Assembly: GCA_902625215.1 (NCBI GenBank) | Contig: CACOAO010000014.1 | Location: 1 to 53,695 of the forward strand | Reading direction: 5' to 3' | DNA from: an uncultured SAR116 cluster alpha proteobacterium | Lineage (GTDB): Bacteria; Pseudomonadota; Alphaproteobacteria; Puniceispirillales; Marisalimonadaceae | DNA: 53,695 nucleotides | Part shown: one piece after another, positions 6,185 to 41,832 of the stretch | How positions within the stretch are numbered: position 1 is the stretch's first letter | How the letters are laid out: every line of letters starts with the position of its first letter | Position numbers and translations under genes: made by a program | The notes under the pieces: generated by a model | The model's input: only the letters and a program-made list of their open reading frames with translations | What the model was told of the DNA's origin: nothing | The model's database searches: none

Positions 6185-6214
6185 GTTAATATTTTAAAAA
6201 GTTAATATAAATTT

Positions 6215-7624: not shown

Positions 7625-7632
7625 ATTTTTTC

Positions 7633-8898: not shown

Positions 8899-8909
8899 AT
8901 TATAAATTC

Positions 8910-10244: not shown

Positions 10245-10254
10245 TAAAACACCA

Positions 10255-11259: not shown

Positions 11260-11347
11260 TTTATACCTATGAACATTTTAATTAAAAGAAGTATAATTAT
11301 TGTTATATTTAACAAAGAATTTAATTTATTTCTAATAATAATTTAAT

Positions 11348-11659
11348 CTATTTTTTTATATCAATTACTATTTGATCAGATTGTATTAATCCTAAAAGAT
11401 CAAAGGAGATCTCAGTGACATAATCAGCATCTAAATTATAATCTCTTAATAAATTAATTTCAGATAATATCTTTTCTTTATTATGAATTAATTGGCTGTA
11501 TTCAATTGATGCAGAGGTTATTTGTGAATTAAGCAAAAAAATTTTCCAAATTGATCTTTCACCAAAGAAAATATGAGAAATGAAAAAAATAAAAATTAAT
11601 ACACTGAAAATTGTAATAAAGTTAAATAAAGTGTTTTTTCTTAAGAAATAAGTATTCAT
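11348..11659 (-). CDS. ftsB: FtsB/DivIC-type septum formation initiator
   Basis: Small bitopic division protein of 103 residues: a short cytoplasmic N-terminus, one membrane segment at about 11-30 ([20 protein letters not shown]), a predicted coiled coil at about 40-70, and a C-terminal motif [20 protein letters not shown] that corresponds to the FtsB 'aR..LGlv.pgE' ending. It is expected to bridge FtsL and FtsQ at the septum. It overlaps eno by four bases (ATGA), and eno-ftsB-pdhA is a conserved alphaproteobacterial order that supports the call despite low sequence similarity. Confidence 0.85.
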
Positions 11660-12951: not shown

Positions 12952-12977
12952 AATTACTCCAATTTTAAAATAGTATA

Positions 12978-13802
12978 CTATTTTTTGATAATTTTATCTA
13001 TTTCAATCAACTTACTCAACAAAGGTTCAAGTTCAGACAATTTTAACATATTTGGCCCATCACTTGGAGCTTCATCAGGATTTTCATGAACTTCAACAAA
13101 TAACCCTGATACTCCTACTGAAATAGCAGCTTTTGATAATACAGGAACAAATTCTCTCTGTCCCCCAGATGAAACTCCTAACCCTCCTGGTTGTTGAACA
13201 GAATGTGTTGCGTCAAAAATAATTGGGTAGCCAAACTCAGACATTTGGGGGATAGCACGCATATCAGAAATAAGAGTATTATAACCAAAAGATGTGCCTC
13301 TTTCAGTAAGTAAAATTTGATTGTTTCCATTTTCTATTATTTTTTCTATTACGTTTTTCATATCCCAAGGAGCTAAAAATTGTCCTTTTTTAACATTAAT
13401 AACTTTTTTTGTTTTAGCTGCAGTATCCAATAGATCAGTTTGCCTGCATAAAAAAGCAGGAATTTGTAATATATCTACTATTTCTGCCACATCTTTACAT
13501 TGATTTGTTTCATGCACATCAGTTATAATTGGAATATTTAGATTTTTTTTTACATCCGACAAAATACTTAAACCTTTTTCAATACCCACACCTCTATTGG
13601 ATGATTTACTCGATCTGTTGGCTTTATCAAAGGATGATTTATAAACAAAATTAATTTTTAATTTTTTACATATTTCTTTAATTACACTTGCATGATGAAT
13701 TGCGTGATCTTTATTTTCGATTGAACAAGGACCTGCAATAAGAAAAAAGGGTAAATTATTTGAAACATTAAAATTTGAAATTTTTACTGTGTTGTACATC
13801 AT
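12978..13802 (-). CDS. kdsA: KDO-8-phosphate synthase
   Basis: 2-dehydro-3-deoxyphosphooctonate aldolase condenses phosphoenolpyruvate with arabinose 5-phosphate for the Kdo sugar of lipopolysaccharide, so the organism is expected to make an LPS-type outer membrane. The 274 residues contain [76 protein letters not shown] and [14 protein letters not shown], all family hallmarks. It lies between pyrG and eno with short gaps. The substrate supplier kdsD is not in the window. Firm. Confidence 0.97.
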
Positions 13803-13830
13803 TTTTAAACAATACCAAAAATAAATAACA

Positions 13831-15477
<1,647 letters not shown>

Positions 15478-15497
15478 TTATCAGCCTGAAAATTAAA

Positions 15498-15809
15498 TTA
15501 ATTGCCTAGAGGAACAGTGGGCTTCTTATTTGAGTTGTTTTCAATTGTTTTACTTACCTCGTCTGCAATTGAAGGAGCGTCATTAGAAGATAATAGTGCT
15601 AAAGTTATTGATGTTAGAAAGAAACACCCGCCTAGAATGGCAGTTAATTTAGTCATAAAATTTGCAGTACCTCTAGCAGTCATAAAACCTCCACCAGCGC
15701 CGCCAGAACCACCAATGCCTAGCCCACCACCTTCACTTTTTTGTAATAATACCGCACATATAATACAAATAGCTAAAATAACGTGTATAACTAAAATAAC
15801 TGTAATCAT
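15498..15809 (-). CDS. secG: Preprotein translocase subunit SecG
   Basis: Small membrane subunit of the SecYEG channel. In 103 residues there are two membrane segments (about 2-22 and 50-72) joined by a glycine-rich loop containing LLQKSEGGGLGIGGSG and FMTARGTANF, the SecG signature. The C-terminal tail is hydrophilic. Its start overlaps the tpiA stop by four bases (ATGA), so it is translationally coupled; the tpiA-secG-pyrG order is widespread in alphaproteobacteria. Firm. Confidence 0.94.
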   Translation of the reverse strand: MITVILVIHVILAICIICAVLLQKSEGGGLGIGGSGGAGGGFMTARGTANFMTKLTAILGGCFFLTSITLALLSSNDAPSIADEVSKTIENNSNKKPTVPLGN

Positions 15810-16564
15810 GTAATTTCCTGTACTTTTGAAGAATTATTTAAATGTTTAACTGCTGCTGTATAAATTGCAAGAAAATCTTTTACTTTAAGGCTTGCTCCTC
15901 CAACTAATACTCCATCTACATTTTTTATTTTTAAAATATTATGAATATTTTTTATATTAACAGAACCACCATAAAGAGTATTTATTTTTTTATCTGATAC
16001 ATCAAACGCTATTTTTTTTATGTGTTCATGCATTTTTTCAATTTCTGAAATACTTGGTATTTTGCCAGTTCCAATTGACCACATAGGCTCATAAGCAATT
16101 AAAGAGTCTTCAAAACCATTCGGTAAACTTTCATGTAATTGCTTTTCTATAAAATTAAAAGCATTTCCTTTTTCACGGTCGATCAAACTTTCTCCTACAC
16201 AAAGAATTACTTTTAAATTAGCATCTATTGCTGATTGAGCACGTAATTTTACTTCATTATTATCTTCACCATTAAGTATTCTTCTTTCAGAATGACCAAT
16301 AATTACATATTCACATCCAATATCTCTAAGAAAAATCGGCGAAACCTCTCCAGTGTAAGCTCCGGAAAATTTAAAATGACAATTTTGAGCTCCAACTGAT
16401 ATTGGAATATTTTGAATAATATTATTTAGATAATCAATATATGTCATTGGAGGAAAGATACATGCTTTTACTTTTTTAGAAAATTTGAAGTTTTTTAAAA
16501 ATTTAGAAAATTCAGAAATAGATTGTTTATCTAAATTCATTTTCCAATTTGCAGCTATTAACAT
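15806..16564 (-). CDS. tpiA: Triosephosphate isomerase
   Basis: Interconverts dihydroxyacetone phosphate and glyceraldehyde 3-phosphate in glycolysis and gluconeogenesis. The 252 residues show the substrate lysine in ANWKMN, the electrophilic histidine in YVIIGHSERR, CVGE, the catalytic glutamate in LIAYEPMWSIGTGK (usual form AYEPVWAIGTG) and the phosphate-binding YGGSVN and GVLVGGASL. It is the first gene of a minus-strand run reaching to 4803 and is divergent from ppiD across 129 AT-rich bases. Firm. Confidence 0.97.
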   Translation of the reverse strand: MLIAANWKMNLDKQSISEFSKFLKNFKFSKKVKACIFPPMTYIDYLNNIIQNIPISVGAQNCHFKFSGAYTGEVSPIFLRDIGCEYVIIGHSERRILNGEDNNEVKLRAQSAIDANLKVILCVGESLIDREKGNAFNFIEKQLHESLPNGFEDSLIAYEPMWSIGTGKIPSISEIEKMHEHIKKIAFDVSDKKINTLYGGSVNIKNIHNILKIKNVDGVLVGGASLKVKDFLAIYTAAVKHLNNSSKVQEIT

Positions 16565-16693
16565 ATAAAAATTATACCTATATTGTTTTAATTAAGTAAA
16601 AATTAATAATTAAATTATTTATAAATTTTTTTAAATAGTATATTAATTTATTTAATTTAACAATTTATACAACAATTTATACTAGGTAAATTT
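16565..16693. promoter_or_regulatory. Divergent tpiA / ppiD intergenic region with a 12-base tandem repeat
   Basis: This is a 129-base gap between divergent tpiA and ppiD, almost pure A/T. It contains two perfect head-to-tail copies of AACAATTTATAC at 16659-16682, directly before the AGG ribosome-binding site (16685-16687) of ppiD. Promoters for both genes must lie here or further in, but I cannot assign -35/-10 pairs with confidence. Confidence 0.4.
16659..16682. repeat. Tandem 12-base direct repeat upstream of ppiD
   Basis: Two adjacent identical copies of AACAATTTATAC. It could be a slippage product, a paired operator half-site or a duplicated -10-like element. Confidence 0.6.
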
Positions 16694-18559
16694 ATGCTAA
16701 GAGCTCTTAGAAACCAAACTCAATCAATATTTTTTAAATGCTTTCTTGTTTTACTTATTTGTGGGTTCGCACTATGGGGTGTAGGTGACCTAACAGGGGG
16801 ATCAAAAGGGAAAAATGTATTAAGTGTCAAAAATCATGATATAAGTGTTGAAGAAGTGTTGGATGAGATAAATAGGGCTAGGTATTTGTTACCTGACAGA
16901 CCGAGCCTTGAAGAGGCAATTAAAAATGGATTGCATAAAAGTATTTTAAATAAATTTGAACAAGAAATTTTAATTAATGAAGAGGCTAGGTATCTTGATT
17001 TAAATGTTCCATTGACAGAACAAATGAAATTAATAAAAAAAGAAAATGCTTTTAAGGATCCTCTTGGTGAATTTTCACAAAGTAAGTTTATTCAATCCTT
17101 AAATAATGCAGGTTTGTCAGAACCTAAGTACCTCGAAATAGTTAAGACCAACTCAAATTTCAAACAATTATCTATGCCTTTTATTTTCAATAATTATTAC
17201 AATGAAAGTGTTATAAAAAGAATAATAGAATGGCAAAATGAAATTAAAGATATTGAATATGAAAAATTTAAATTTGTTAATAAAAATGATTTAAAAAGAC
17301 CATCAAATAATGTTTTAGAAACGTTTTATAACAAAAATAAAAAATTATATGAAATACCTCTTACCAGGGACATTAAATATATAAACATAAATCCTTCTCT
17401 TTTTGAGGAACAGGTAGTAATTAATCAAAAACAAATTGATGAAAAATATGAAATAGAAAAATCCAATTACAAAATAGAAGAAACAAGAGAAATACTTCAA
17501 ATAACAACACAAGATGAAAAAAAAGCTAAGAATTTTTTAGATTTAGTAAAAGCTGACCAAAATTTTAATAAAATTGCAAAAAATCTTTTTAATTTAACTG
17601 AGTCTGACACAAATATTGGTATTATAAAAAAATCTGATCTACCATTAGAAAGTGCAGAAATAATTTTTAATGCAAAATTAAATGAAATTTTAGGCCCAAT
17701 TAAAACCAAATTTGGGTTTAGTATTTATAAAATTATAAATATAATACCGGAAAAACTAACTAACTATGAAGAAGCAGTTAATGATATCAAGAAGAAACTA
17801 ATTAAAGATTTATCAATAGAAATATTATTTGAAAAACTTGATCAAGTTGAAGATCTAATAGCTGAAGGTAATAATATTGATGAAATAGCCAAGTCAAATA
17901 TTTTTAATAAAAACATATCCATTACTAATGTAAAAAAAATATCTAAACAAGGATTAATATACTCAAATGAGAAAGAAACAAGTTATTTTAAAAAGAGTCC
18001 TGAATTTATTAAAAATATTTGGAATACGGAAATGAATGAATTGAGTGAAATTTTTAATTCAAATGATGATAATTATTTTTTAATAGAAGTAATTAATGAA
18101 TATAATAAAAATACACCAACATTTAATCAAGTTAAATCAAAGGTTTATAATGAATGGTTAAATAAAGAATTAATTACGAAATCAATGGAAAGGGTAAAGA
18201 ATTTAATTTCTTCTAAAAATAATAAATTATTATCAAAAACATCTATAAAAAGAAGTGATAAGAATATAGAAGATGTACAAGATTTAACATTAATAAATAA
18301 AATTTTTGAAATCAATAATAATGAAATTAATATATTAGTCTCAAAAGATAATCTATTTGCGGTTAAAATTACAAATACAAAAATAGGTGATTACAATTTC
18401 GATAAAAAAACATATGAACAATTAAATATTAGTTTTTCAAAAAGTTTCTTTAATGATTTTTCCAATTTTTATCTTCAACATTTAGCTAGTAAACATAATT
18501 TAAAAAGAAATTATCAAGAATTAAATAAATTTTTCATTCAAAAAGAAAATGTAAACTAG
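16694..18559 (+). CDS. ppiD: PpiD-like periplasmic folding factor (SurA-N / parvulin family)
   Basis: Membrane-anchored periplasmic chaperone expected to help newly exported proteins emerging from SecYEG. Of 621 residues, 1-16 are cytoplasmic, one membrane anchor lies at about 13-35 (FFKCFLVLLICGFALWGVGDL), followed by the VLSVKNHDISVEEVLDEINRAR chaperone start and a weak parvulin domain at about 255-350 (EILQITTQ, AKNLFNLTESDTNIGIIKKSDLP, LGPIKTKFGFSIYKI). The remaining long charged region is poorly conserved. Isomerase activity is doubtful, as in E. coli PpiD. Length and architecture match alphaproteobacterial PpiD, and tpiA-ppiD adjacency is usual. Its TAG stop shares the palindrome CTAG with the opposing merR stop. 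Confidence 0.85.
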   Translation: MLRALRNQTQSIFFKCFLVLLICGFALWGVGDLTGGSKGKNVLSVKNHDISVEEVLDEINRARYLLPDRPSLEEAIKNGLHKSILNKFEQEILINEEARYLDLNVPLTEQMKLIKKENAFKDPLGEFSQSKFIQSLNNAGLSEPKYLEIVKTNSNFKQLSMPFIFNNYYNESVIKRIIEWQNEIKDIEYEKFKFVNKNDLKRPSNNVLETFYNKNKKLYEIPLTRDIKYININPSLFEEQVVINQKQIDEKYEIEKSNYKIEETREILQITTQDEKKAKNFLDLVKADQNFNKIAKNLFNLTESDTNIGIIKKSDLPLESAEIIFNAKLNEILGPIKTKFGFSIYKIINIIPEKLTNYEEAVNDIKKKLIKDLSIEILFEKLDQVEDLIAEGNNIDEIAKSNIFNKNISITNVKKISKQGLIYSNEKETSYFKKSPEFIKNIWNTEMNELSEIFNSNDDNYFLIEVINEYNKNTPTFNQVKSKVYNEWLNKELITKSMERVKNLISSKNNKLLSKTSIKRSDKNIEDVQDLTLINKIFEINNNEINILVSKDNLFAVKITNTKIGDYNFDKKTYEQLNISFSKSFFNDFSNFYLQHLASKHNLKRNYQELNKFFIQKENVN

Positions 18560-29466: not shown

Positions 29467-29715
29467 TTACCATATATTGATGTAAAAAAATTCATCAAAA
29501 AATTCTTTTTCAACCATCCAGTAAATTATGGACGCAAGAATAAAAGACATTAAAAAAGAGGCAATAACTTTTATTTTCAAATTAGTTTTATCTGGTGCAG
29601 AGTTAGCAAATCCTTCTTTATGATGCTCAGAAACATATACACCTATTGGAAGAGAAATAAAAAATAAAATCATCCAGACTATTAAAAAAACTACTATATA
29701 TGATACCAAACTCAT
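29467..29715 (-). CDS. DUF1467-family small membrane protein
   Basis: Protein of 82 residues with two membrane segments (about 4-26 and 48-67). Recognised as DUF1467 from VWMILFFISLPIGVY, SEHHKEGFANSAPDKTNLKIK and the second helix. The family is confined largely to alphaproteobacteria, lies downstream of ribonuclease J there too, and has no established function. It is nine bases after rnj. Call by motif and context. Confidence 0.8.
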   Translation of the reverse strand: MSLVSYIVVFLIVWMILFFISLPIGVYVSEHHKEGFANSAPDKTNLKIKVIASFLMSFILASIIYWMVEKEFFDEFFYINIW

Positions 29716-29724
29716 TTATATTAT

Positions 29725-31380
29725 TTAAACTCTATTGATATGGATATTTACTGTTGGCCTCTTACTAAAAATTGACTTAAATTCACTTTTTATTAATTTT
29801 TTAATTTTATTAATAATATCGACATCAGAATTTAATATTTTATCAGAATTTTCATCAATCAAATTTTCAATTTTTAGAGATGTATTTACTAAAAAATTTT
29901 CCATAGAGTTACTATCAGAAACTCCTACTTGTGATATCTGTGGAGGTGTAATAAGGTAACCATCTTCATTAATTACAACTGAAACACTAACAAAACCATT
30001 CCATAATGAATGTCTTCTGACTGAAAATCTTTCACTATTAATGGGAACTATTTCGCCAGCATCGTATACATGATTAACAAAATCAATTTTTGAAACTACA
30101 CCGGGAGTAGATCCATTTAATTTTATTACATCTCCATTTTTAGGTTTTATGATTTGCGGTATTTGGCATTGATGCGCTAGCTCTGCGTGCGCATCTATAT
30201 GTTCTCTTGTTCCATGTACTGGAATAGAAATTTTAGGCTTTATGAATGAGTACATATCTACCAACTCATCTTTTGAAGGATGGCCAGAAACATGAACGTT
30301 TTTGTAATCATCGGTAATTATTTCAACACCCATCTCCAGAAGTCGATTCTGAAGTTTTAATATAGCATTTTCATTACCAGGAATCTTCCTACTGGAAAAA
30401 ATAATTACATCACCTTTTTTTAGTTTGATGTATTTATCAGCCCCTCTAGAAATTCTGTTTAAAGCTGAGTTTGGTTCACCTTGGGAACCAGTAGAAATAA
30501 TTAAAACATTACTCCTAGGAATTAAATTTAGATCATTTACAGTCAATAAATCTGGTAAATTATCTAAAATTCCAACCTCTTTTGCTGCATCAATTGCTCT
30601 CAACAATGATCTCCCTACAACTAGAACAGATCTACTAGATTTTTTAGCTATATCTAATAAAGATTTAATTCTACTTATATTTGAAGAAAAACAAGTAACA
30701 AGAACCATTCCCTCAGTATTAGGTATAATTTCCATCAGACCATCATATGCAAAATCTTCTGATGGTGTTCTCCCTTCAATTAGTGCATTTGTAGAATCAC
30801 AAACCATTGCCAAAACCCCACCATTTCCTAAAGATCTAAAATCATTTATGTCAATAGTTTCATTAATATTAGAAGAATGATTTAGTTTCCAATCTCCTGA
30901 ATGAAATATATTTCCTTCTTTTGTTGAAATTAGAATTGATACTGGATCAGGAATGGAATGTGAAATTTTTAGAGCTTTTAATTTAAAGGGGCCAATATCA
31001 AAATTTTCATCAATATTTAAAATCTTAAATTTAATTTTATTATTTTTATTATTTTCTTTTAATTTTCTTTTTAAGAGAGCAATGGTAAATGGTGTACCCC
31101 AGATAGGACAATTTATAATATCTGCGAAATATGGTATTGCACCTATATGGTCTTCATGTCCATGAGTTAGAATTATACCTAAAAATTTATCTTTCAAGGA
31201 TTTAATGAATTGATAATCTGGCAATAAAACATCAATTCCTAAGTCTGCCTCATCAGGAAATGAAATACCAAAGTCTACTAGTATCCACTTATCATCATAA
31301 TGATATAAATTTGCATTCATTCCTATTTCTTCAGAACCACCAACAGGCAAAAACAATAAGTCAGATTTATCCCAATTCAT
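29725..31380 (-). CDS. rnj: Ribonuclease J
   Basis: Metallo-beta-lactamase/beta-CASP ribonuclease for mRNA decay and rRNA maturation. The 551 residues begin LLFLPVGGSEEIGMNANLY; the zinc motif is ILTHGHEDHIGAIPYF, followed by ISHSIPDP, GDWKLN, CDSTNAL, the beta-CASP TGSQGEPNSALNRISRG and VSGHPSKDEL, and VHGTREHIDAH. Alphaproteobacteria commonly use RNase J alongside or instead of RNase E functions. The gene follows coaX by 13 bases in the birA-coaX-rnj order. Firm. Confidence 0.96.
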   Translation of the reverse strand: MNWDKSDLLFLPVGGSEEIGMNANLYHYDDKWILVDFGISFPDEADLGIDVLLPDYQFIKSLKDKFLGIILTHGHEDHIGAIPYFADIINCPIWGTPFTIALLKRKLKENNKNNKIKFKILNIDENFDIGPFKLKALKISHSIPDPVSILISTKEGNIFHSGDWKLNHSSNINETIDINDFRSLGNGGVLAMVCDSTNALIEGRTPSEDFAYDGLMEIIPNTEGMVLVTCFSSNISRIKSLLDIAKKSSRSVLVVGRSLLRAIDAAKEVGILDNLPDLLTVNDLNLIPRSNVLIISTGSQGEPNSALNRISRGADKYIKLKKGDVIIFSSRKIPGNENAILKLQNRLLEMGVEIITDDYKNVHVSGHPSKDELVDMYSFIKPKISIPVHGTREHIDAHAELAHQCQIPQIIKPKNGDVIKLNGSTPGVVSKIDFVNHVYDAGEIVPINSERFSVRRHSLWNGFVSVSVVINEDGYLITPPQISQVGVSDSNSMENFLVNTSLKIENLIDENSDKILNSDVDIINKIKKLIKSEFKSIFSKRPTVNIHINRV

Positions 31381-31393
31381 AATTTTCTTTCAA

Positions 31394-32191
31394 TTAATTT
31401 TTTTTATTATTTAAATATAATTTTACTAATCCAATCAAAGTTAAATCATCAACAATTAAATCAATGTTATTTAATGATTTTTTAAATAAATTACTTAACC
31501 CACCAGTAGCCACAACTTTATAATTAGAATATTTATCTACTGATTTTATTTTTTCAATTAGACCTTCAATCATTGATACATACCCCCAGAATATTCCAGA
31601 CTCCATAGCGGTTACAGTATTTTTTCCAATTATGGAAGAATTTGTGTCTACCAAAGTTCTAAGTGATACTTTTGGCAAATTAGCTGTAGCAAGATAGAGT
31701 GCTTCCAAAGACAAATTTACCCCAGGAGCAATTATACCTCCATTATAACTGCCATTTTTACCGACAATATCAAAGGTTGTAGCAGTTCCAAAATCAATTA
31801 TGATAGCAGGAGAAATTTTCAATTTATAAGCAGCATATGAGTTTACCAGTCTGTCAGCACCTGCCTCTTTTGGATTATCAATATTAACGTTGATTCCCAA
31901 ATCAAGAATATTTTCATTAACGACTAACGATTTAACATTAAAATATTTATTAATTAAAGACTTAATATTAACAAGCGTTTCTGGAACTACTGATGCTATA
32001 GATACTCCTTTAACATTTTTAATTTCAAATTTAGAAATTTCAAACATTTTCAATAACCAAGGAAAATACAAGTCAGCAGTCCTTTTAGAGTCGTTATTAA
32101 TTCTCCAACTTGATAATTGTTTGATTTCTTTGTTAGTCGTGTACAAGGCAAAAACAGTATTTGTATTACCACAATCAATAGCTAATATCAT
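31394..32191 (-). CDS. coaX: Type III pantothenate kinase
   Basis: First step of coenzyme A synthesis, of the ASKHA fold type that is not feedback-inhibited. The 265 residues show the phosphate loop ILAIDCGNTNTVFALY, GADRLVNSYAAYK, IIDFGTATTFDIV, YNGGIIAPGVNLSLEAL and VATGGLSNLF. It overlaps birA by four bases (ATGA), as in many alphaproteobacteria. Firm. Confidence 0.96.
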   Translation of the reverse strand: MILAIDCGNTNTVFALYTTNKEIKQLSSWRINNDSKRTADLYFPWLLKMFEISKFEIKNVKGVSIASVVPETLVNIKSLINKYFNVKSLVVNENILDLGINVNIDNPKEAGADRLVNSYAAYKLKISPAIIIDFGTATTFDIVGKNGSYNGGIIAPGVNLSLEALYLATANLPKVSLRTLVDTNSSIIGKNTVTAMESGIFWGYVSMIEGLIEKIKSVDKYSNYKVVATGGLSNLFKKSLNNIDLIVDDLTLIGLVKLYLNNKKN

Positions 32192-32928
32192 AATGATTTT
32201 TCATCTGGAAAAAAAATACTTTCGACAGAATAATATTCTAAATTTTCTTTGCCAACTTTAATCTTCAAACTTCCATCATCTCCTAAACCAAGAAAAACTC
32301 CACTAATTTCGTCAGATTGAGAGTTTAATTTGATAACAATTTTATTATTAACATTGTAAATATTATTATTAATCTTTTTTTTAAAAAAATTAAATCCCTT
32401 ATCTTCCCAAATATAATAATTTTTAAAAATAGTTTTTAGTATAATATTTGCAACATATTTGAGAGAAAAATCTTTGTTTGTATGATCTTTCAATTTTGTA
32501 GTATACCATTTTGTTTCATTTTGTGGGGTTTTTAAAATATTCAATCCGATCCCAACAACGACAAAATCATCGAAAGATTCTAGTAGAACACCAGAGATTT
32601 TTCTTTTCTGAACAAGTACATCATTTGGCCACTTTAATTCAATTTTATTTCTATCTATACCAAGTTTAATTAGAGTTTCAAAAATAGATAAACCAATTAT
32701 TAATGACAATTGATACCAATAATTTTTATTAGTTTTTGGCTTTAATATGGTTGATAAATGAAGATTTCCATTTATTGATGCCCAATGATTATCATTTCTA
32801 CCTCTTCCATTGGTTTGCGAATATGATAAAAATGAACTACCTTCAGGAAAACCTTGTTTTGCATTTTTTATAGCAATGTCATTAGTGCTAGAACAAGTTT
32901 GTAAAATATTAAGATCAATATGTATCAA
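32188..32928 (-). CDS. birA: Biotin-protein ligase, no DNA-binding domain
   Basis: Class I biotin ligase of 246 residues that attaches biotin to carboxylase carrier proteins. Visible parts are TCSSTNDIAIKN, the biotinyl-AMP loop QTNGRGRNDNHWAS, LHLSTILKP, KWPNDVLVQKRKISGVLLES and VVGIGLNI. No winged helix precedes the catalytic domain, so it is not a repressor. In many alphaproteobacteria the gene immediately upstream is nuoN; here it is a NuoL-like protein, 19 bases away. Firm. Confidence 0.94.
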   Translation of the reverse strand: MIHIDLNILQTCSSTNDIAIKNAKQGFPEGSSFLSYSQTNGRGRNDNHWASINGNLHLSTILKPKTNKNYWYQLSLIIGLSIFETLIKLGIDRNKIELKWPNDVLVQKRKISGVLLESFDDFVVVGIGLNILKTPQNETKWYTTKLKDHTNKDFSLKYVANIILKTIFKNYYIWEDKGFNFFKKKINNNIYNVNNKIVIKLNSQSDEISGVFLGLGDDGSLKIKVGKENLEYYSVESIFFPDEKSL

Positions 32929-32947
32929 AAATCCACCTTAAAAACAT

Positions 32948-34627
32948 TTATTTATTAAAATTATATGATGTAAAAGTTTTCAAATAATACTTAAATAATT
33001 TGTTATTTTTTAATTTTAAATTATTACCTAACTTTGGAATGATAGTATAATTTAAAAAAGCCATTGTGATACCGAAATAACAAAGAATATATCTAACTTT
33101 AAAAAGTGATTGATTATTCTCAAGATTATGATTAATCGTCAAGTTTATATCACTTACTAATACCAAACGCCACAAATTTTCACTAAAATTACCTGAAAAT
33201 AAATTGTTCAAAAACCATCCTGAAAAAATTATAAAAATGGATAACAGAAAAAGCATACACTTTAAAAAATATGATCCATCTTCAATCTTGTTATATAAAT
33301 GGATATTACAATTATTATGGCCTAAAAAAACAATTAATAAAATTTTAAAAGAAGTATAACTAATAATAAAAGTATAAAAAAAACAATAAGTAAAAATTAA
33401 AAAATAACTTTCTTTGTTAATTAATGATAATTGAAAAAAAATTAATTTATTGGAATAATATCCTGAGAAATATGGTATTCCCAATAAAGAAACAAGACCA
33501 ATTAAAATAAATAAAAACAATGAAGGACATTTAATAATAAGATAACCCATTTTTCTAATATCTTGTTCATAATTCAATTTGTAGGATATTATTCCAAAGC
33601 TTAAACTTAAAATTACAAAAGATATTATTGATGTAAAAAAATGAAAAATAGCTGCATTGTACAACTGTAAACCAACTAAAATCAATAAAACACCAAATTG
33701 GGCAGAAACAATATAAAGTATTATTTTTTTTAAATTATATGAACGAATTAGTAAAATTGAAAAAATGAAAGTTAATATAGAACCCAATATCAATAAAAAA
33801 TTTAAATATTCAAAACTTATTTGAGTTAAAGTTAAAAAACGTAAAACAAAATAAAGTCCAACGGGCGTATACAATACATATAAAATAAGAGAATAGGAAC
33901 TCGTATCACAATTTGATAAATCATACCTGGAATTTGAAATATAAAATTGACGACATCTTAATAAAAAAGAAAAAAATAAAATAAAAGTTACAATGTCAAA
34001 ACTTCTAAAGTCTTTATTGAAAATATTAATGTTATTTTCTAAAATTTGAAAACTTTTAAAAATAACATCAAAATGTATTGAGCTAGAAAATTTATAAATA
34101 AAATACAAACTTAGAAAAAAACAGAGATCAGAAGCTCTGTTTTGAAAAAATATATTACTATTGTCAACCCTCCTTTCTGAAATATCTGTTATCAAATAAG
34201 TTGATAAAATTATTAAATACCAAGCAAAGAAAAACTGAATCAAATTATTTGAAGTTATTAAAACTAATACACTGAAAATTGAAAGAGATATGTAGCTATT
34301 TATTTTATAGCTTATTAACAAATTTATTGAAAATATATTTAATAACAATCCTATAAACATTACTAAAAAAATTAGGCTAGAAACTAATAAATCAAATCTT
34401 AATGACCATTCAAAGAATAACTCATCAAATTTTATTAAAGTATAAAAATAAAGTGGTAAATCTTTATCTAAATTTAAAATTTTAAAAAAAACAAATAAAC
34501 TTAAACCCAGAGAAAGGCTATATAGAAATATATTTAAAGTATATAAAAATAAGGTTTTTTTGCTTCGTTTAGTAAACCAAAGTAATAAAAAACTCAATAA
34601 TGGGAAAATAAATAATAATATTTCCAT
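32948..34627 (-). CDS. Highly divergent NuoL-like (Mrp/complex I antiporter-family) membrane protein
   Basis: Intact 559-residue polytopic protein (about 14 membrane segments) that aligns with NuoL along most of its length: FFAWYLIILSTYL, IFFQNRASDLCFFLSLYFIY, LKKIILYIVSAQFGVLL, YNAAIFHFFTS, YEQDIRKMGYL and LLGIPYFSGYYSNK match NuoL GWEGVGLCSYLL, TRVGD, IKRVLAYSTMSQIGYM, AAIFHLMTH, EQNIFKMGGL and ALPLVTAGFFSK. The residues used for proton transfer are gone: E. coli E144 is Y137, K229 is R224, H254 is L249, H338 is S333, K342 is F337, K399 is N393 and D400 is K394; H334 is kept (H329). It lies 96 bases after nqrF and 19 before birA, where nuoN normally sits. It is probably a relic of complex I kept for a structural or Nqr-related role, or another member of the antiporter family. 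No DabA partner is seen. Confidence 0.75.
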   Translation of the reverse strand: MEILLFIFPLLSFLLLWFTKRSKKTLFLYTLNIFLYSLSLGLSLFVFFKILNLDKDLPLYFYTLIKFDELFFEWSLRFDLLVSSLIFLVMFIGLLLNIFSINLLISYKINSYISLSIFSVLVLITSNNLIQFFFAWYLIILSTYLITDISERRVDNSNIFFQNRASDLCFFLSLYFIYKFSSSIHFDVIFKSFQILENNINIFNKDFRSFDIVTFILFFSFLLRCRQFYISNSRYDLSNCDTSSYSLILYVLYTPVGLYFVLRFLTLTQISFEYLNFLLILGSILTFIFSILLIRSYNLKKIILYIVSAQFGVLLILVGLQLYNAAIFHFFTSIISFVILSLSFGIISYKLNYEQDIRKMGYLIIKCPSLFLFILIGLVSLLGIPYFSGYYSNKLIFFQLSLINKESYFLIFTYCFFYTFIISYTSFKILLIVFLGHNNCNIHLYNKIEDGSYFLKCMLFLLSIFIIFSGWFLNNLFSGNFSENLWRLVLVSDINLTINHNLENNQSLFKVRYILCYFGITMAFLNYTIIPKLGNNLKLKNNKLFKYYLKTFTSYNFNK

Positions 34628-34633
34628 GTTTCA

Positions 34634-34679
34634 TGCATTTATATTTTTCTATAAAATATAATATAAAGATGTTAATGCA
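34634..34679. repeat. Nested inverted repeats between nqrF and the NuoL-like gene
   Basis: The 96-base spacer contains outer arms TGCATT (34634-34639) and AATGCA (34674-34679), and inner arms TTTATATT (34638-34645) and AATATAAA (34660-34667). The stems are AT-only or nearly so. They could fold into a weak hairpin separating the nqr transcript from the downstream gene or contain -10-like elements for it; no U-run typical of a terminator follows. Confidence 0.35.
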
Positions 34680-34723
34680 ACGAAAAAAATTCTACTTAAA
34701 AGTTAAAGAAAATATGATGCAGT

Positions 34724-35944
34724 TTACCCACCAAAATCATCAAGCATTATATCTTCCCTATCAACCCCTAAATCAAGAAGCATATTTATAACAGATTGGT
34801 TCATCATAGGTGGCCCACACATATAATATTCACAGTCCTCTGGTGCAGGATGATCCTTAAGATATTGTTCATATAGAACGTTATGAATAAATCCGGTAAG
34901 GCCAACCCATTTATCTTCGGGCATTGCATCAGATAGAGCTACATGCCAACTAAAATTTGGATTCTCTTTTGCTAACTTATTAAAGTCTTCTACATAAAAC
35001 ATTTCTTTTTTAGATCTTGCTCCATACCAAAAAGTAACCTTACGTTTAGTTTTAATTCTATTAAATTGATCAAAGAGATGACTTCTCATTGGTGCCATCC
35101 CCGCACCACCCCCAATAAAAACCATTTCTTTATCTGTTTCTCTGGCAAAAAACTCACCAAAAGGCCCAGAAATTACTACTTCATCACCGGGTCTTAAATT
35201 AAAAATATATGAAGACATCTTTCCTGCTGGAATTCCAGTAGATCCAGGAGGAGGTGAGGCTATTCTTACATTTAGCATTACGATACCTTTTTCATCAGGA
35301 CAATTTGCCATAGAATAAGCTCTCTCTATAGGCTCATTACTTTCAGCATTGAAATCCCATATTTTAAATTTATCCCAATCTTCATGGTATTCTTTTGCAA
35401 CATCAAAATCTTTATATGATAATGAGTAACTTGGAGCCTCAATTTGTATATATCCCCCAGCTTTGAAATTAACATCTTCTCCTTCTGGAAGTTCTAATAT
35501 TAATTCTTTTATAAAAGTAGCAACGTTATCGTTACTTCTAACTTTACATCTCCATTTCTTAACGCCAAAAACTTCTTCCGGAACTTCAATTTCCATATCT
35601 TGTTTAACTGCAACTTGACATGACAAACGATCTCCACAAGATGCTTCTCTTTTATTAATGTGACTCTCTTCAGTAGGTAAAATTGCTCCACCACCTGAGT
35701 GAACTTTAACTCGGCATTGAGCACAAGTTCCACCTCCTCCACAAGCTGATGGTACAAAGAGTTTTTCTGCTGCAAGCGTTTGTAATAATTTACCCCCAGC
35801 TGGAACAGTTACCTTTTTTTCTCCGTTAATTGTAATGTTTACATCACCAGATGAGACTAATTTACTCCTAGCAAATATAATTATTGATACTAAAGTAAGA
35901 ACTATCATTGTAAAAAGAGTTATACCAAGCACAAATGTATCCAT
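34724..35944 (-). CDS. nqrF: Na+-NQR subunit F (NADH dehydrogenase module)
   Basis: Entry subunit of the sodium-pumping NADH:quinone oxidoreductase: takes hydride from NADH onto FAD and passes electrons to a 2Fe-2S centre. The 406 residues have an N-terminal membrane anchor (about 5-25), a ferredoxin domain with cysteines in [13 protein letters not shown] and LSCQ, the FAD-binding RAYSMAN, and the NADH-binding [14 protein letters not shown] with a C-terminal [12 protein letters not shown]. The ending DDFGG is conserved in NqrF. It is the last nqr gene, 11 bases after nqrE. Firm. Confidence 0.97.
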
Positions 35945-35955
35945 TTTTTATCCTT

Positions 35956-36564
35956 TTAAAGTTTAACACCAGAAAAACACATAAACGCCATTGCCATAAG
36001 TCCAGCAGTTATAAAAGTAATTCCAAGACCTTGTAAGCCATCAGGTATATCGCTATACTTAAGTTTCTCCCTAACGCCAGCCATAGTAGCAATTGCCAGA
36101 GCCCAACCAAATCCAGAAGCTATTCCATAAGTTGTAGCTTCTGAAAAGTTATAATCTCTTTCTACCATAAATAATGAACCTCCTAGTATAGCACAATTCA
36201 CAGTGATTAATGGGAGGAAAATACCTAAAGCATTATACAAGGGTGGAAAATACTTATCTAAAATCATTTCCAAAATTTGAACCAATGCTGCTATAACTCC
36301 AATATATGAAATCAAGCCTAAAAATGTTAAATCTATATCTGGAAAACCAGCCCAAGCTAATGCTCCAGGTTTTAGTAAATATGATAATATAATGTTATTT
36401 GCAGGAACTGTAATTGACTGGACTATCATTACTGAAATACCTAAGCCAATTGCAGTTGATATTTTCTTGGAAACAGCAATAAAAGTACACATACCTAAAA
36501 AGAAAGATAGAGCTAAATTCTCCACAAAAATTGCTTTTACAGCTAACGAAATCAGACTTTCCAT
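35956..36564 (-). CDS. nqrE: Na+-NQR subunit E
   Basis: Integral subunit with six membrane helices that, with NqrD, holds the intramembrane iron centre. The two conserved cysteines are in [12 protein letters not shown] (near residue 26) and [10 protein letters not shown] (near 120). The 202 residues match the family. The start ATG shares its A with the nqrD stop (TAATG). Firm. Confidence 0.96.
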
Positions 36565-37217
36565 TAATGTTCCTCTAACGTTTGTATTTTGTATTCACGT
36601 GCTTCAACTTGAGATTTTTTCCATGTCCTTACACCCCAAATGATAAAACCTATTATGAAAAATGCTGAAGGAGGCAATAATAACAAACCGTTCGGTACAT
36701 ACCAACCCCCGTTATTTACTGAATCAAATATTGTTATACCAAATAAAGTACCTGAACCAAAAAGTTCTCTTATTACTCCAACACTCATTAATAAGAGACT
36801 GTAACCTAGGCCGTTACCGACACCATCGACAAATGATTCAAATGGTCTATTCTTCATAGCAAATGCTTCCGCTCTTCCCATTACAATACAATTTGTAATA
36901 ATTAAACCTACAAATACGGATAATGTTTTAGATATTTCATAAGCATATGCTTTAATTATTTGGTCTACGAGTATAACTAATGAAGCAATTATAACCATCT
37001 GAACAATAATTCTAATTGAATTGGGAATATAATGTCTTAAAAATGAAATAAACAAAGATGAAAAACCACAAACAGCAATAACGGCTAATGACATTACAAA
37101 GGCTACATTTAATGAAGAAGTAACTGCTAAAGCAGAACAGATACCTAAAACTTGTAGTGTTATAGGGTTATTATCTATCAAAGGGTCAACTAATAATTGT
37201 TTCCTAGTTTGAGACAT
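36564..37217 (-). CDS. nqrD: Na+-NQR subunit D
   Basis: Partner of NqrE with the opposite membrane topology; both contribute cysteines to the intramembrane Fe-S site, here in [12 protein letters not shown] (near residue 29) and [15 protein letters not shown] (near 112). The 217 residues begin with a short hydrophilic tail, then six helices. Overlaps nqrC and nqrE by one base each, showing tight translational coupling. Firm. Confidence 0.96.
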
Positions 37218-38008
37218 TATGCTGTTCCATTCTGCAAATTAGTTAGAAATTTTTTAAAACCAGTTTTTCCCATCCAAAATCTTACTAAATTATCAACTCC
37301 ATTTGAAGTAAGAGTTGCCCCTGCAAGTGCATCAATATGGTGATTTTTGTATTTTTTAGTTTTAGCTACTGTTATCATAAGCTCACCATTATCATTATTT
37401 AGTTTTTTTCCTTTCCATTGCGCTTTCCATTTAGGATTATCTACTTCAGCCCCTAATCCAGGTGTTTCTGCATGTTGGTAAAATTGAAGGCCATATATAT
37501 CATTACCATTTTTTTCTAAAGCTATAAAACCGTATAATGTTGACCATAAACCATAACCATGTATTGGAAGAATTATCTTGTCTAATGTTCCATCATCTTT
37601 TTTAAGAAGATAAACAGTTGCAAAGTTTGTTCTTCTCCCAATGGATGCAGGATCCTCTTTCAATGATATACTTAATTTTGGATCTTGAGCTGCTTTTCTA
37701 TCATCAAAAGTTAAAGGATCAAACTCATTTGTAAATTTACCCTGATTTAAGTCTACAACAATTGGCTCGAAAGATGAAAACGATTTTTCAACATCAATCC
37801 CTTCATAATAAAGTCCAGCGACTTGAAGAATATTTTTTTGTTTATCAATTGCTTTGTTTACCTCTTGAACTTCTTTTAAATTCACAGCAGCAAACGATAC
37901 AACCATAGAACAAACAAGACAAAGAGTTATAGCCACAAACAAAGTTTTAGTCATGCCATCAACTGGCAAGTCTTTAAATTTAGTAAAAATATTATCGGGC
38001 TTAGGCAT
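37217..38008 (-). CDS. nqrC: Na+-NQR subunit C (covalent FMN subunit)
   Basis: Periplasmic-facing subunit anchored by one N-terminal helix (about 20-42) that carries covalently bound FMN. The attachment motif reads [13 protein letters not shown] near residue 230; the flavinylated threonine (SGAT in Vibrio) is kept, though the first Ser is Ala. Also characteristic are the [18 protein letters not shown] and [17 protein letters not shown] stretches. The 263 residues are normal. It overlaps nqrB by eight bases. The FMN is put on by ApbE, encoded divergently upstream of nqrA. Firm. Confidence 0.96.
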
Positions 38009-39209
38009 TTAACTTTATCCTTCTTTTGATATTTGCCATGACAACAAAATGATCTATTAACGGTGCAAATATATTTCCAAATAAAATAGCAAGCATCATT
38101 CCTTCAGGAAATGCTGGATTTAATACCCTTATCATCACAACCATAAAACCTATCAACGCTCCATACACATATCGTCCAAGATTAGTATGACTTCCAGAAA
38201 CAGGTTCAGTAACCATAAAAACTAATCCAAAGGCGTAACTTCCAATTACAAGATGCCAATACCAAGGCATGCTAAACATTGGATTTGTGTCAGAACCTAC
38301 CCAATTAAGGAATGAGGAAAATATAATCATACCTAAAAGACAACCGACAACCATTCTGTAATTTGCAATTTTTGTTAAAAGAAGAAAAACTAAACCTAAA
38401 GCGCATGCTAGTGTTGAAGTTTCGCCAAGCGATCCCTGAATTGTTCCAATAAAAGCATCTGTCCATGTAATTCCATAATTACTTAAACTTTCATAACCTT
38501 CAGCAGCTGCTATTCCTAGAGAAGTAGCTCCTGAATATCCATCAACTGGCGTCCAGATTGAATCACCTGACATGTAAGCAGGGTAAGCAAAATATAAAAA
38601 TGCACGACCTGTAAGCGCTGGATTAAGAAAATTTTTACCAGTTCCACCAAATACCTCTTTTCCTACAACAACACCGAAAGCTATACCAAGTGCAACTTGC
38701 CACAGAGGAGTAGAAGCTGGTAAAGTAAGAGCAAACAACATAGAAGAAACTAAAAAACCTTCGTTAACTTCATGACCTCTTATGGTCGCAAAGGTTACTT
38801 CGCAAATACCTCCAGCAATTAAAGTTGTTAAATATATTGGTAAAAAATACAATAAACCATGAAAAACATTCGATATTAAACTGTCAGGATTAATTCCTAG
38901 GCCAGTTAATGTCAGAAATGATATGCGCCATCCTGACTGAGATTCAACACCAAGAGCGACCAAAGCACTATTTGTTTGTAAACCAGTATTGTATAGTGCC
39001 CACAAGATACAAGGAATTGTAGAAATGACTACGTAGGTCATTACCCTTTTCATATCTACAAAGCTTCTAGCGTGAGGTGCAACTTTTGTTACAGTATTAC
39101 TAGTAAAAAATATGGTTTCTACCATTTCAAAAATAGGGTAATACTTCTCATATTTACCACCCTTTTCAAAATGAGGTTCAAGCGAATTAAAATAATTACG
39201 TAATGACAT
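38001..39209 (-). CDS. nqrB: Na+-NQR subunit B (riboflavin/FMN membrane subunit)
   Basis: Largest membrane subunit, forming the sodium channel and binding riboflavin and covalent FMN. The FMN site is in DGYSGATSLG near residue 225-234. There are about ten membrane helices, and TGKNFLNPALTGRAFLYFAYP and EPVSGSHTNLGRYVYGALIGFM are typical. The frame opens at a TTG (39212) directly after the nqrA stop, but the ATG at 39209 has an AAGG Shine-Dalgarno, giving 402 residues. Firm. Confidence 0.97.
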   Translation of the reverse strand: MSLRNYFNSLEPHFEKGGKYEKYYPIFEMVETIFFTSNTVTKVAPHARSFVDMKRVMTYVVISTIPCILWALYNTGLQTNSALVALGVESQSGWRISFLTLTGLGINPDSLISNVFHGLLYFLPIYLTTLIAGGICEVTFATIRGHEVNEGFLVSSMLFALTLPASTPLWQVALGIAFGVVVGKEVFGGTGKNFLNPALTGRAFLYFAYPAYMSGDSIWTPVDGYSGATSLGIAAAEGYESLSNYGITWTDAFIGTIQGSLGETSTLACALGLVFLLLTKIANYRMVVGCLLGMIIFSSFLNWVGSDTNPMFSMPWYWHLVIGSYAFGLVFMVTEPVSGSHTNLGRYVYGALIGFMVVMIRVLNPAFPEGMMLAILFGNIFAPLIDHFVVMANIKRRIKLNA

Positions 39210-39212
39210 CAA

Positions 39213-40556
39213 TTAACCTTCTTTTTCGATTTTTGTTAAACTGTCTCTAAGAGCAGTTCCATATTCATATTTAGCAGGACAGGCAAAAGTACATAATGCG
39301 ATATCCTCCTCGTCGAGCTCCAGAGCTCCAAGCGATTGAGCAACATCAGTATCCATAACTAACAATGACCTAAGTAACTGAGTTGGCAAAAAGTCCTGAG
39401 GCATTAAAGTTTCAAAGACACCTGTAGGTACCATCGCTCTTCTACCACCATTAAGATTTGACGTAAGATTAAATAATTTAAAAAAACTGAATGCAGATAA
39501 TAAAACAGGCATAACGGAGTATTTATTAGGTTGTGGTTTTATCCAACCAAAAAAATGTTTTTCTTTATCTTCTTTAATTATTGTAATTTGTCTGGAGTAT
39601 TTTCCTAAATAAGCCAAGTCACCATCTGCATGAAAACCTGAAAGAACAGAACCTGAAATTATTCTACAATTCTCAGACTTATCATATTCTCCTTCGAGAA
39701 TATCATCAAGAGATGCTCCGACAATAGTTTTAACTAATCTAGGATTAGTTGATAAAGGGCCTCCAACTGAAATAGTTCTATCAATATCAATATATCCATT
39801 TAAAAATAATTTTCCTATTGAAATTACGTCTTGATAACCAATCGACCAAACTGTTTTGCTAGCGTTTGGAGGGTCTAGGAAATGCATGTGTGTACCGCTT
39901 AAACCAGCGGGATGTGGTCCAGCAAATTCGTAAGTATCAAAATCATTAACATGAATATTACTATTTTCTTTTTTGCAAATAAAAACTTTACCTTCAGTTA
40001 AAGTGGCAATCCTATTAATTCCTTCTTCAAAGGCCTTAAAATCTTTATTAATTATCAAGTCAGCGTCTGGACTTAGAGGTTCAGTATCCATAGCCGTTAT
40101 AAATATTGATGATGGATCAGATTTACTATCAGGTATTTTTGAGTAAGGTCTGGTTAAAAAAGATGTCCATAAACCACTATCCAGCAAACATTTTCTATTA
40201 AATTCTTTTTTTGACTTTTCTTTGGAATTCAATTTAGTTATGGCAATTCCTTTATCTACTATATTTTCAATATCTATAACAACGCTCAGTAAGGCTCTTT
40301 TCTCTCCTCTATTAATTTCTTTAACAAAACCTTTACAAGGTGAAACAAAAAAAGCATCAGGATTATCTTTGTGACAAAATAAGGGTGTGCCCCTTTCAAC
40401 TTTATCACCTACATTTACAAACATTTTGGGTTTAAGACCATTATAATCAGGTCCAAGTATTGCAACAGAGTTAGGAATTTTACTTTCTTCTACAACTTGT
40501 TTTGGTATACCCGCGATAGGAATATCTAGGCCTTTCTTGAGATTAAATTTATTCAT
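39213..40556 (-). CDS. nqrA: Na+-NQR subunit A
   Basis: Cytoplasmic subunit of Na+-NQR implicated in quinone binding. The 447 residues show KKGLDIPIAGIP, DNPDAFFVSPCKGFV, TRPYSKIPDSKSDPSSIFITA, GPHPAGLSGTHMHFL, SVGGPLSTNPRLV and a C-terminal CTFACPAKYEYG. It is the first gene of nqrABCDEF. No Shine-Dalgarno precedes the ATG; a TATAAT ends only nine bases upstream of it, so the transcript may be nearly leaderless. Firm identity. Confidence 0.96.
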   Translation of the reverse strand: MNKFNLKKGLDIPIAGIPKQVVEESKIPNSVAILGPDYNGLKPKMFVNVGDKVERGTPLFCHKDNPDAFFVSPCKGFVKEINRGEKRALLSVVIDIENIVDKGIAITKLNSKEKSKKEFNRKCLLDSGLWTSFLTRPYSKIPDSKSDPSSIFITAMDTEPLSPDADLIINKDFKAFEEGINRIATLTEGKVFICKKENSNIHVNDFDTYEFAGPHPAGLSGTHMHFLDPPNASKTVWSIGYQDVISIGKLFLNGYIDIDRTISVGGPLSTNPRLVKTIVGASLDDILEGEYDKSENCRIISGSVLSGFHADGDLAYLGKYSRQITIIKEDKEKHFFGWIKPQPNKYSVMPVLLSAFSFFKLFNLTSNLNGGRRAMVPTGVFETLMPQDFLPTQLLRSLLVMDTDVAQSLGALELDEEDIALCTFACPAKYEYGTALRDSLTKIEKEG

Positions 40557-40770
40557 TTAAAATTAATTATAGCCTCTTTGAAAAAAATGATTTTTATTTG
40601 GTATGACAAGTTATATTTATATGTAATATTTATATGATATTTAAAAAAAAACAAGGGTATATAAAGATTTTTTTTGTTTTTTTTTGTTAAAAAACTCTAA
40701 AAAAATAAAACATTAACAATTATTTAAAATTTACCTAAATTTAGATAAAACAAAAAAAAAAATTTAAGAA
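40557..40770. promoter_or_regulatory. Divergent nqrA / apbE control region, A-tract rich
   Basis: This 214-base gap, nearly 90% A/T, separates the structural nqr operon from its maturation genes. On the minus strand TATAAT (40566-40571) ends nine bases before the nqrA ATG, which lacks a Shine-Dalgarno; no good -35 lies 16-18 bases further up. A perfect 12-base inverted repeat AAAAAAAAACAA (40643-40654) / TTGTTTTTTTTT (40674-40685) flanks a 19-base loop. The many phased A- and T-tracts may curve the DNA. Confidence 0.4.
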
Positions 40771-41832
40771 ATGTGTAAAAGAATGAACTTTTTTATAAAA
40801 AAATTTCTAGTAACTCATGTAACCCTAATAATTGTCACTTTATTTAATTCATCCTGCTCAAGTGAAAAATATTATAATGCCGAAATAAAAGGTAATGCAA
40901 TGGGCACATTTTACTTCATTGAAGTTATAGATGTTCCAATTGAAATAAAAATTAAAAATATAGAATTAGAAATTAAAAACTCACTTATCAAAGCAAATAA
41001 AATTTTATCAAATTGGGATGAAGAATCTGAAATAAGCATTATCAATAAAATTAACAAAACTAAAGCAATTAAAATTTCAGACGAATTAAATGAAGTTTTT
41101 AAAACTGCTTACGAAATAAACATAAAAAGCAATGGTTTTTTTGATTTGACCCTTGATCCAATAATTGAACTTTGGGGCTTTGGTTACAAAAACAAACAAA
41201 TGGAAATCATACCTACTGACGAACAAATAAAAAAAGCTCTGTCTTTAATTGGTCAAAAATCATTTCTTAAAAATGACTTTGATAATAATGAACTCACAAA
41301 AAAAATTAAAAATTTAAAAATCAATTTGTCTTCCATAGGTAAAGGTTACGGCATTGATTTAATCGGAAAAAAATTGGATCAACTTGGCATAAAAAATTAT
41401 ATCATCAATATTGGAGGAGATATTCTTACAAAAGGTTATAATAGTAAAAAAGAAAATTGGGTTATTGGTATTGAAAATCCAAATTTAAAAGAAAAATTGA
41501 TTAAAGAAATAGTAAATATAACTAACAAAGGGCTTGCAACTTCAGGTGATTATAAGAATTTTTTTACAAAAAATGGTAATAGATATTCTCATATAATTAA
41601 CCCAAAAACTGGAAAGCCAATAACACACTCTACTAAATCAGTTACTGTTATTCATGAAGACTCAATGAAAGCTGATGGTTGGGCAACAGCATTTTTAGTT
41701 TTGGGGAGTTTGGAAGGATTGAAAATTGCTGAAAAAGAAAAGATAGCTGTTCTCTTCATTGATAAAATTAATAATAAGCTAATCAATTTAAAAAGTAGTA
41801 AATTCAAAAACTTAAAAAAAAACAACAATTGA
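40771..41832 (+). CDS. apbE: FAD:protein FMN transferase ApbE
   Basis: Periplasmic lipoprotein that attaches FMN covalently to threonines, here expected to act on NqrB and NqrC. The 353 residues start with a signal peptide ending in FNSSC (lipidated Cys29). Family motifs are GNAMGTFYFIEV, ILSNWDEESEIS, INLSSIGKGYGIDLI, INIGGDIL, YSHIINPKTGKPI and the metal-binding SMKADGWATAFLVLG. An alternative ATG lies at 40783. It is read divergently from nqrA and is followed 30 bases later by nqrM. Firm. Confidence 0.95.
   Translation: MCKRMNFFIKKFLVTHVTLIIVTLFNSSCSSEKYYNAEIKGNAMGTFYFIEVIDVPIEIKIKNIELEIKNSLIKANKILSNWDEESEISIINKINKTKAIKISDELNEVFKTAYEINIKSNGFFDLTLDPIIELWGFGYKNKQMEIIPTDEQIKKALSLIGQKSFLKNDFDNNELTKKIKNLKINLSSIGKGYGIDLIGKKLDQLGIKNYIINIGGDILTKGYNSKKENWVIGIENPNLKEKLIKEIVNITNKGLATSGDYKNFFTKNGNRYSHIINPKTGKPITHSTKSVTVIHEDSMKADGWATAFLVLGSLEGLKIAEKEKIAVLFIDKINNKLINLKSSKFKNLKKNNN

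Follow-up and report, generated by a model that had tools for sequence, protein, structure and literature searches.

NuoL', a probably repurposed complex I orphan beside the Na+-NQR operon at the ancestral nuo site of SAR116 bacteria

A NuoL homolog between nqrF and birA

Why would a bacterium in which no complex I can be found keep an intact gene for a complex I antiporter-type subunit directly beside the operon of a sodium pump? The question is raised by a stretch of 53,695 nucleotides from an uncultured SAR116 alphaproteobacterium (GCA_902625215.1, contig CACOAO010000014.1; the whole stretch is called the window here, GC content 0.292), the host genome of which comprises 2,008,688 bases in 66 contigs and is 88.84% complete. 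An open reading frame on the minus strand of the window (positions 32948 to 34627) encodes a 559-amino-acid (aa) membrane protein with 15 predicted membrane helices, named NuoL' here. The original prediction, made from the window sequence, had placed this 559-codon frame exactly, leaving its strand unstated.

On the same strand lie nqrA (39213 to 40556), nqrB (38001 to 39212), nqrC (37217 to 38008), nqrD (36564 to 37217), nqrE (35956 to 36564) and nqrF (34724 to 35944), all NCBIfam equivalogs above cut-off, and, on the other side of NuoL', birA (32188 to 32928), coaX (type III pantothenate kinase; 31394 to 32191) and rnj (RNase J family; 29725 to 31380), a flank by which the ancestral nuo site can be recognized. 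A 96-bp spacer (34628 to 34723) separates nqrF from NuoL' and a 19-bp gap separates NuoL' from birA, the first gene of the flank; the full gene order is nqrABCDEF, NuoL', birA, coaX, rnj, a DUF1467 gene, rpiB and glyA. A scan of positions 29500 to 41000 found fewer promoter and terminator sites than in shuffled sequences (59 versus 68.3 and 3 versus 4.2, respectively). An ApbE-like flavin transferase gene (40771 to 41832; 249 bits against an NCBIfam cut-off of 498 bits) lies divergently upstream of nqrA, and such a gene is also found at nqrA in relatives whose contigs reach that side.

NuoL' matched Pfam family PF00361 at 4.3e-22 and the NCBIfam NuoL model TIGR01974 at 197.2 bits (residues 3 to 554 over model positions 4 to 557 of 630), which does not reach the cut-off of 407.5; two further NuoL' proteins scored 187.7 and 216.6 bits, and three intact NuoL proteins 840 to 851 bits. 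In a tree of 57 antiporter-type proteins (computed with a quick method, long branches being flagged), NuoL' formed one clade (SH-aLRT 100) inside the NuoL group (99) and was separate from NuoM, NuoN and the window genome's three Mrp-type proteins. The best PDB matches of the NuoL' family profile were Paracoccus NuoL and plant mitochondrial ND5. The NuoL ancestry named in the original prediction is borne out by this tree together with synteny, and NuoL' is a complex I NuoL by descent. That it descends from the local nuoL is suggested mainly by synteny: in two free protein trees NuoL' did not stand beside the NuoL of its own family (genera g11 and g13), holding it with these proteins gave a value 3.98 log units higher (p-AU 0.67), so that the expected place was not rejected, and NuoL' profile scores (292 to 301 bits for g13, 268 to 280 bits for g11 and up to 284 bits for other members of the class) did not separate the origin.

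Replacement of nuo by nqr at one genomic site

A full-size NuoL gene lies upstream of birA-coaX-rnj at eight loci from other families of the order (L075 to L079, L081 to L083) and at six loci from the same-family genera g11 and g13 (L124 to L129), with the order L-M-N-birA at the loci for which ORFs were listed (L076, L079). At the same site in g1, the genus of the window, the order is nqrABCDEF-NuoL'-birA-coaX-rnj. nqrA was found in 28 of 40 g1 genomes and in both g12 genomes, and in none of the 94 other genomes of the order searched, including those of g11 and g13. NuoD was present in 1 of 37 g1 genomes versus 23 of 24 other genomes of the order, and NuoH in 1 of 40 g1 genomes; the sole g1 genome with both, G029, is 5% contaminated. 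The nuo genes of G029 are on contigs C68 and C96, apart from its nqr locus, and are probably contamination; its second NuoL (L097) fell outside the group of the order's other 14 NuoL with modest support (85, and 78 in a second tree). In agreement with the earlier remark that no other complex I gene is visible, searches of the window genome (88.8% complete) returned no NuoD (PF00346), no NuoH (PF00146) and no NuoL above cut-off, and no nuo operon with a normal NuoL was found elsewhere in it. Besides NuoL', PF00361 matches only three proteins of this genome, of 496, 485 and 565 aa, all encoded in one Mrp-type operon on contig C25 (L080, positions 7463 to 14779 of G000:C25). The operon also encodes an MbhD-MbhE protein of 192 aa but has no long MrpA.

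Because the flank of the nuo site carries nqr in g1, where NuoD and NuoH are missing outside the contaminated G029, synteny shows a replacement of nuo by nqr with nuoL left over: nqrABCDEF took over the site of the nuo operon, and nuoL stayed, in the common ancestor of those SAR116 genera that carry nqr. The original prediction had described the gene as attached to the nqr operon, which gene order reverses, since NuoL' holds nuoL's own site and it is nqr that would have come to NuoL'. A nuo-to-nqr replacement with an adjacent nuoL has already been reported for SAR116 genera LGC2-C and LGC2-D (PMC8547437, 2021), at the same locus and in the same event; section 8 of that paper gives the position of nuoL beside nqr in one sentence, and that section holds no analysis of residues, selection, loss or structure. 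Among the literature matches listed there was no other paper on the NuoL' gene. The replacement itself is partly in print, and the distribution of NuoL' and its selection, residue and structure analysis are new. PMC8547437 also describes complex II as not detectable in genus LGC2-C, which may be a genus other than g1; SdhA was above cut-off in 30 of the 40 g1 genomes.

Distribution, losses and the link to Nqr

Twenty-four of the 40 g1 genomes were readable at the site. In five the contig ends too early (G001, G010, G015, G022, G034), G033 gave no match, and 10 others had neither nqrA nor NuoL', most of the genomes used being incomplete. NuoL' was kept in 22 of the 24, as 16 complete orthologues of 559 to 565 aa and as six copies cut by contig ends (G003, G008, G013, G019, G023, G061), the latter left out of alignments and residue counts. 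The remaining two (G027, G030) have birA directly after nqrF, and NuoL' is also lacking in both g12 genomes (G067, G068), where nqrF and birA are spaced by 68 and 70 bp. A single loss, with these four genomes as one clade, was rejected on ten concatenated proteins (p-AU 1.4e-6). Since NuoL' sits at the ancestral place and the four genomes lacking it are not one clade, at least two lineages lost the gene separately; NuoL' appears to be useful but dispensable. In a search of 385 genomes of the class, the best match besides the window reached 284.2 bits and no other g1 genome was among the matches. NuoL' is the most AT-rich of nine locus genes measured (GC 0.209), and the breaks that six assemblies have within it may hide the gene in presence surveys. 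In G035 (L094, positions 13035 to 17706), nqrA and nqrE each match in two pieces, through assembly error or real damage.

These data bear on the suggestion that NuoL' belongs to Na+-NQR as an accessory subunit specific to the clade, a proton-sealed NuoL that would serve the sodium pump that displaced its own complex, as a scaffold, stabilizer or gate on NqrB, NqrD or NqrE. Wherever the sequence on the nqrF side can be read (the 16 complete copies and, in part, G003, G008, G013 and G023), NuoL' follows nqrF immediately and on the same strand, and it was retained after the replacement, under selection. However, adjacency to nqr was inherited from the nuo operon and so is not evidence for an Nqr subunit. 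nqrABCDEF is also found without NuoL' in the four genomes of two separate lineages named above, and the nqr locus of HTCC2181 is without it according to PMC8547437. Two Nqr sites track the loss of NuoL', with 0 to 4 for other groupings, and rate covariation between NuoL' and Nqr subunits was −0.49 to −0.05 (−0.24 to 0.17 without G024); neither test, each of them weak, pointed to a link with Nqr. Rate covariation of NuoL' with birA was 0.81 (0.68 without G024) and may reflect shared recombination blocks. Of the co-occurrence with nqr that the original prediction had proposed to check, the conserved position beside nqr in relatives stands (22 of 24 readable g1 genomes), but the four genomes with nqr and without NuoL' go against it. 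A role as an Nqr subunit is possible on this evidence, though rather unlikely; if true, a complex I subunit would have become a new kind of respiratory accessory protein.

Loss of the proton path within a conserved fold

All 15 intact NuoL (among which L097, taken as a contaminant, is counted) carry E144, K229, H254, H334, H338, K342, K399, D400, R175 and D178 (E. coli numbering throughout). Aligned with E. coli NuoL (NC_000913), the window copy has E144 replaced by Y137, K229 by R224, H254 by L249, H338 by S333, K342 by F337, K399 by N393 and D400 by K394, with no gap through the K229-H254 region, exactly as originally predicted. Among the 16 complete NuoL', the E144 position holds Tyr in nine, Gln in six and His in one; K229 is Arg in every copy (codon 224; 33956 to 33958, minus strand as for all codons below); and H254 has given way to Leu, Phe, Tyr or Ile. 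H338 and K342 are replaced in 16 of 16 (codons 333 to 337; 33617 to 33631). At codons 393 and 394 (33446 to 33451), K399 is still Lys in 5 of 16 and D400 is Asp in none, which makes K399 the only one of the seven named proton-path residues to survive in any NuoL'. H334 is kept in nine copies, including that of the window. R175 and D178, in contrast to the proton residues, are kept in 16 of 16 (R164 and D167 of NuoL'; codons 164 to 167, 34127 to 34138).

Over the whole alignment, of the 200 columns that do not vary in intact NuoL and that the window protein also has, 41 were kept in at least 15 NuoL'; of the 29 invariant D/E/K/R/H columns, 3 were kept in at least 14 of 16. Most substitutions in NuoL' are bulky apolar residues, and at 24 columns each group conserves a residue of its own, K229 to R224 and A231 to R226 among them. 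Past approximately E. coli residues 544 to 551, all 16 copies lack the rest of the protein, so that TM16 and most of the transverse helix are gone; none has the columns of E. coli residues 544, 559 and 563. The proton path would thus be largely dismantled, and the description of the protein as channel-dead is well supported as a reading of the alignment, with the reservation that sealing is not equally complete among copies (H334 in 9 of 16, K399 in 5 of 16). In another test system, growth was little affected by E144Q or K229A in NuoL (PMC4938563), which indicates that single substitutions need not kill the channel; in NuoL' most of these sites change together.

The fold has been kept. A model of NuoL' (pLDDT 71, pTM 0.78, 16 sequences) has 15 long helices and ends in a short helix after helix 15, and its seven best PDB matches are NuoL/ND5 chains (TM-score 0.78 to 0.81); of 18 loci, the structure alignment left out L119 (partial) and L120 and L121 (distant NuoL-like). 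NuoL' loops carry 17.0 Lys plus Arg after odd helices and 5.4 after even ones, and the C-terminal tail 5.9 on average. With the N-terminus periplasmic, as in NuoL, this distribution would place the basic C-terminal tail in the cytoplasm (codons 534 to 559; 32951 to 33028), ending at the point from which TM16 and most of the transverse helix have been lost. The loop between helices 13 and 14 (codons 436 to 452; 33272 to 33322), probably cytoplasmic as well, has a mean majority-residue share of 0.84, the highest among loops longer than four residues, and includes nine residues whose conservation is confined to NuoL'.

A kept NuoL fold with 24 switched conserved columns might also be expected of a transporter or channel for a non-proton substrate, in which the old cavity was lined with new residues such as R224 and R226. 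Against this, only the 3 of 29 invariant charged or histidine columns persist, the substitutions are mostly bulky and apolar, and no transport partner gene adjoins NuoL', DabA being found in 0 of 40 g1 genomes; we regard such a function as improbable.

Purifying selection and rate of change

Across nine NuoL' pairs, omega was 0.063 to 0.197, with a log-likelihood gain over omega = 1 of 31.8 to 126.4 (fitted from several starting points). The pairs with unsaturated dS were G002/G020 (omega 0.197, dS 0.33, gain 35.5), G021/G062 (0.197, 0.25, 31.8) and G026/G021 (0.188, 0.50, 43.6), the same three pairs giving 0.105, 0.191 and 0.127 for birA. For intact NuoL, omega was 0.035, 0.037 and 0.045 within g13 and 0.083 in another family; two control pairs were excluded because their dS was saturated. 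NuoL' is under clear purifying selection, weaker than that on complex I NuoL (omega approximately 2 to 6 times higher). This accords with the earlier claim that the intact frame is held open by selection, dN/dS lying well below the value near 1 that would have spoken against it. In neutral simulation at 0.25 substitutions per site, a mean of 24.9 in-frame stops accumulated and none of 300 runs stayed stop-free, whereas no stop or frameshift occurs in any of the 16 complete NuoL'; together with the omega values this rules out a pseudogene.

On a fixed tree, the ratio of NuoL to CoaX branch lengths was 0.39 in complex I lineages, rose to 12.4 on the NuoL' stem and fell to 3.6 in the crown, the stem rate taking in time before the replacement and a shift in composition. 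Stem also exceeded crown relative to birA, rnj, glyA and the DUF1467 gene (five reference genes with CoaX). NuoL' has a GC content of 0.209 versus 0.311 for intact NuoL, and an Ala + Gly + Pro + Arg content of 8.4% versus 19.6%. In G024 (L091, positions 5903 to 8355), NuoL' and birA are diverged, with 50% and 63% mean identity to clade mates compared with 65 to 72% and 73 to 80% in others; nqrF, coaX and glyA of this genome are normal, as if the NuoL'-birA block had been swapped by recombination.

Faster change than in the measured neighbors and in the intact NuoL of relatives, the AT-rich codon shift and the losses in at least two lineages would all fit a slowly decaying relic, its frame kept open since a broken hydrophobic protein would do harm. 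Yet omega is 0.19 to 0.20 in close pairs, all 16 complete copies are open where a neutral gene would gather many stops, a loop and a tail are newly conserved, and a harmful relic could simply be deleted, as in two lineages. We consider decay of this kind less likely even than a new transport function.

Likeness to known systems and a probable new use

NuoL' shares with NuoL/ND5/Nqo12 of the alphaproteobacterial and mitochondrial type its descent, genomic place, TM1 to TM15 fold, R175 and D178, but differs by the absence of TM16 and most of the transverse helix, by its replaced proton residues, by a NuoL score of 188 to 217 bits versus 840 to 851 and by a genome in which no complex I was found. 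A place as a complex I subunit is ruled out by the missing NuoD and NuoH, the NuoL score below cut-off, the lost residues and the lost transverse helix. Mrp-type antiporter subunits have the PF00361 domain in common with NuoL', but NuoL' groups with NuoL and stands outside the Mrp-type operon. The DabAB carbon system contains a NuoL-type membrane protein, DabB, that works outside complex I; identity with DabB is ruled out by the lack of its partner gene, DabA, in all 40 g1 genomes. That NuoL' still pumps protons or sodium within a hidden complex I or an Mrp-type complex, as its fold and the Mrp-type operon of the genome might suggest, is extremely improbable, given that NuoD and NuoH occur in g1 in G029 only, that the docking arm and proton residues are gone, that the tree sets it apart from Mrp-type subunits and that quinone reductase activity drops to 14% when E. 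coli NuoL is truncated by a frameshift at K551, about where NuoL' ends, and to 7% with a stop at Y590 (PMC3274701).

A further likeness is to an engineered protein. Thermus Nqo12 deprived of residues 516 to 605 is a stand-alone module that conducted protons, and K385I blocked it (PMC11496545). The same source names K385 as the terminal lysine and K216/D166 and R163/E132 as ion pairs, which by our mapping would correspond to K399, K229/D178 and R175/E144 of E. coli. Much the same part has been removed in both proteins and the C-terminus is cytoplasmic in the module as predicted for NuoL'; NuoL', however, is natural, and by this mapping its conduction lysine positions are mostly replaced. NuoL' looks like a naturally occurring version of the engineered stand-alone module.

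We think it probable that NuoL' is a NuoL that was orphaned, became sealed against protons and was taken over for a membrane role other than pumping. In the sequence of events that we envisage, nuoL stayed behind as nqrABCDEF displaced the nuo operon. In the absence of complex I, the orphan would have lost most of the transverse helix and TM16, the docking arm that ties NuoL to its neighbors, and would then have been unable to join any complex I. As a stand-alone NuoL without the transverse helix conducts protons, such an orphan could have been a harmful leak, which the residue changes would have sealed; early sealing would fit the burst of change on the NuoL' stem branch. What would be left is a 15-helix protein with fold, topology and the R175-D178 pair kept and K229 fixed as Arg, most likely with a structural or regulatory, non-pumping role exerted through its cytoplasmic face, where the newly conserved loop and the basic tail would lie. 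Weaker selection than on NuoL and the shift in Ala, Gly, Pro and Arg content also fit relaxed constraint and speak against reuse to that extent. Of the two readings offered by the original prediction, an accessory Nqr subunit or a repurposed antiporter-family protein, the second is preferred in the form of a repurposed orphan, a better name for NuoL' than new Nqr subunit, and Nqr is one candidate partner.

As a natural experiment, NuoL' shows what may become of an antiporter-type subunit that has lost the machine around it, and its comparison with intact NuoL may separate the residues needed for folding from those needed for pumping, a matter long debated for complex I. For this marine clade, it shows that a proton pump was exchanged for a sodium pump at one place in the genome, with a leftover gene that is still kept by selection.
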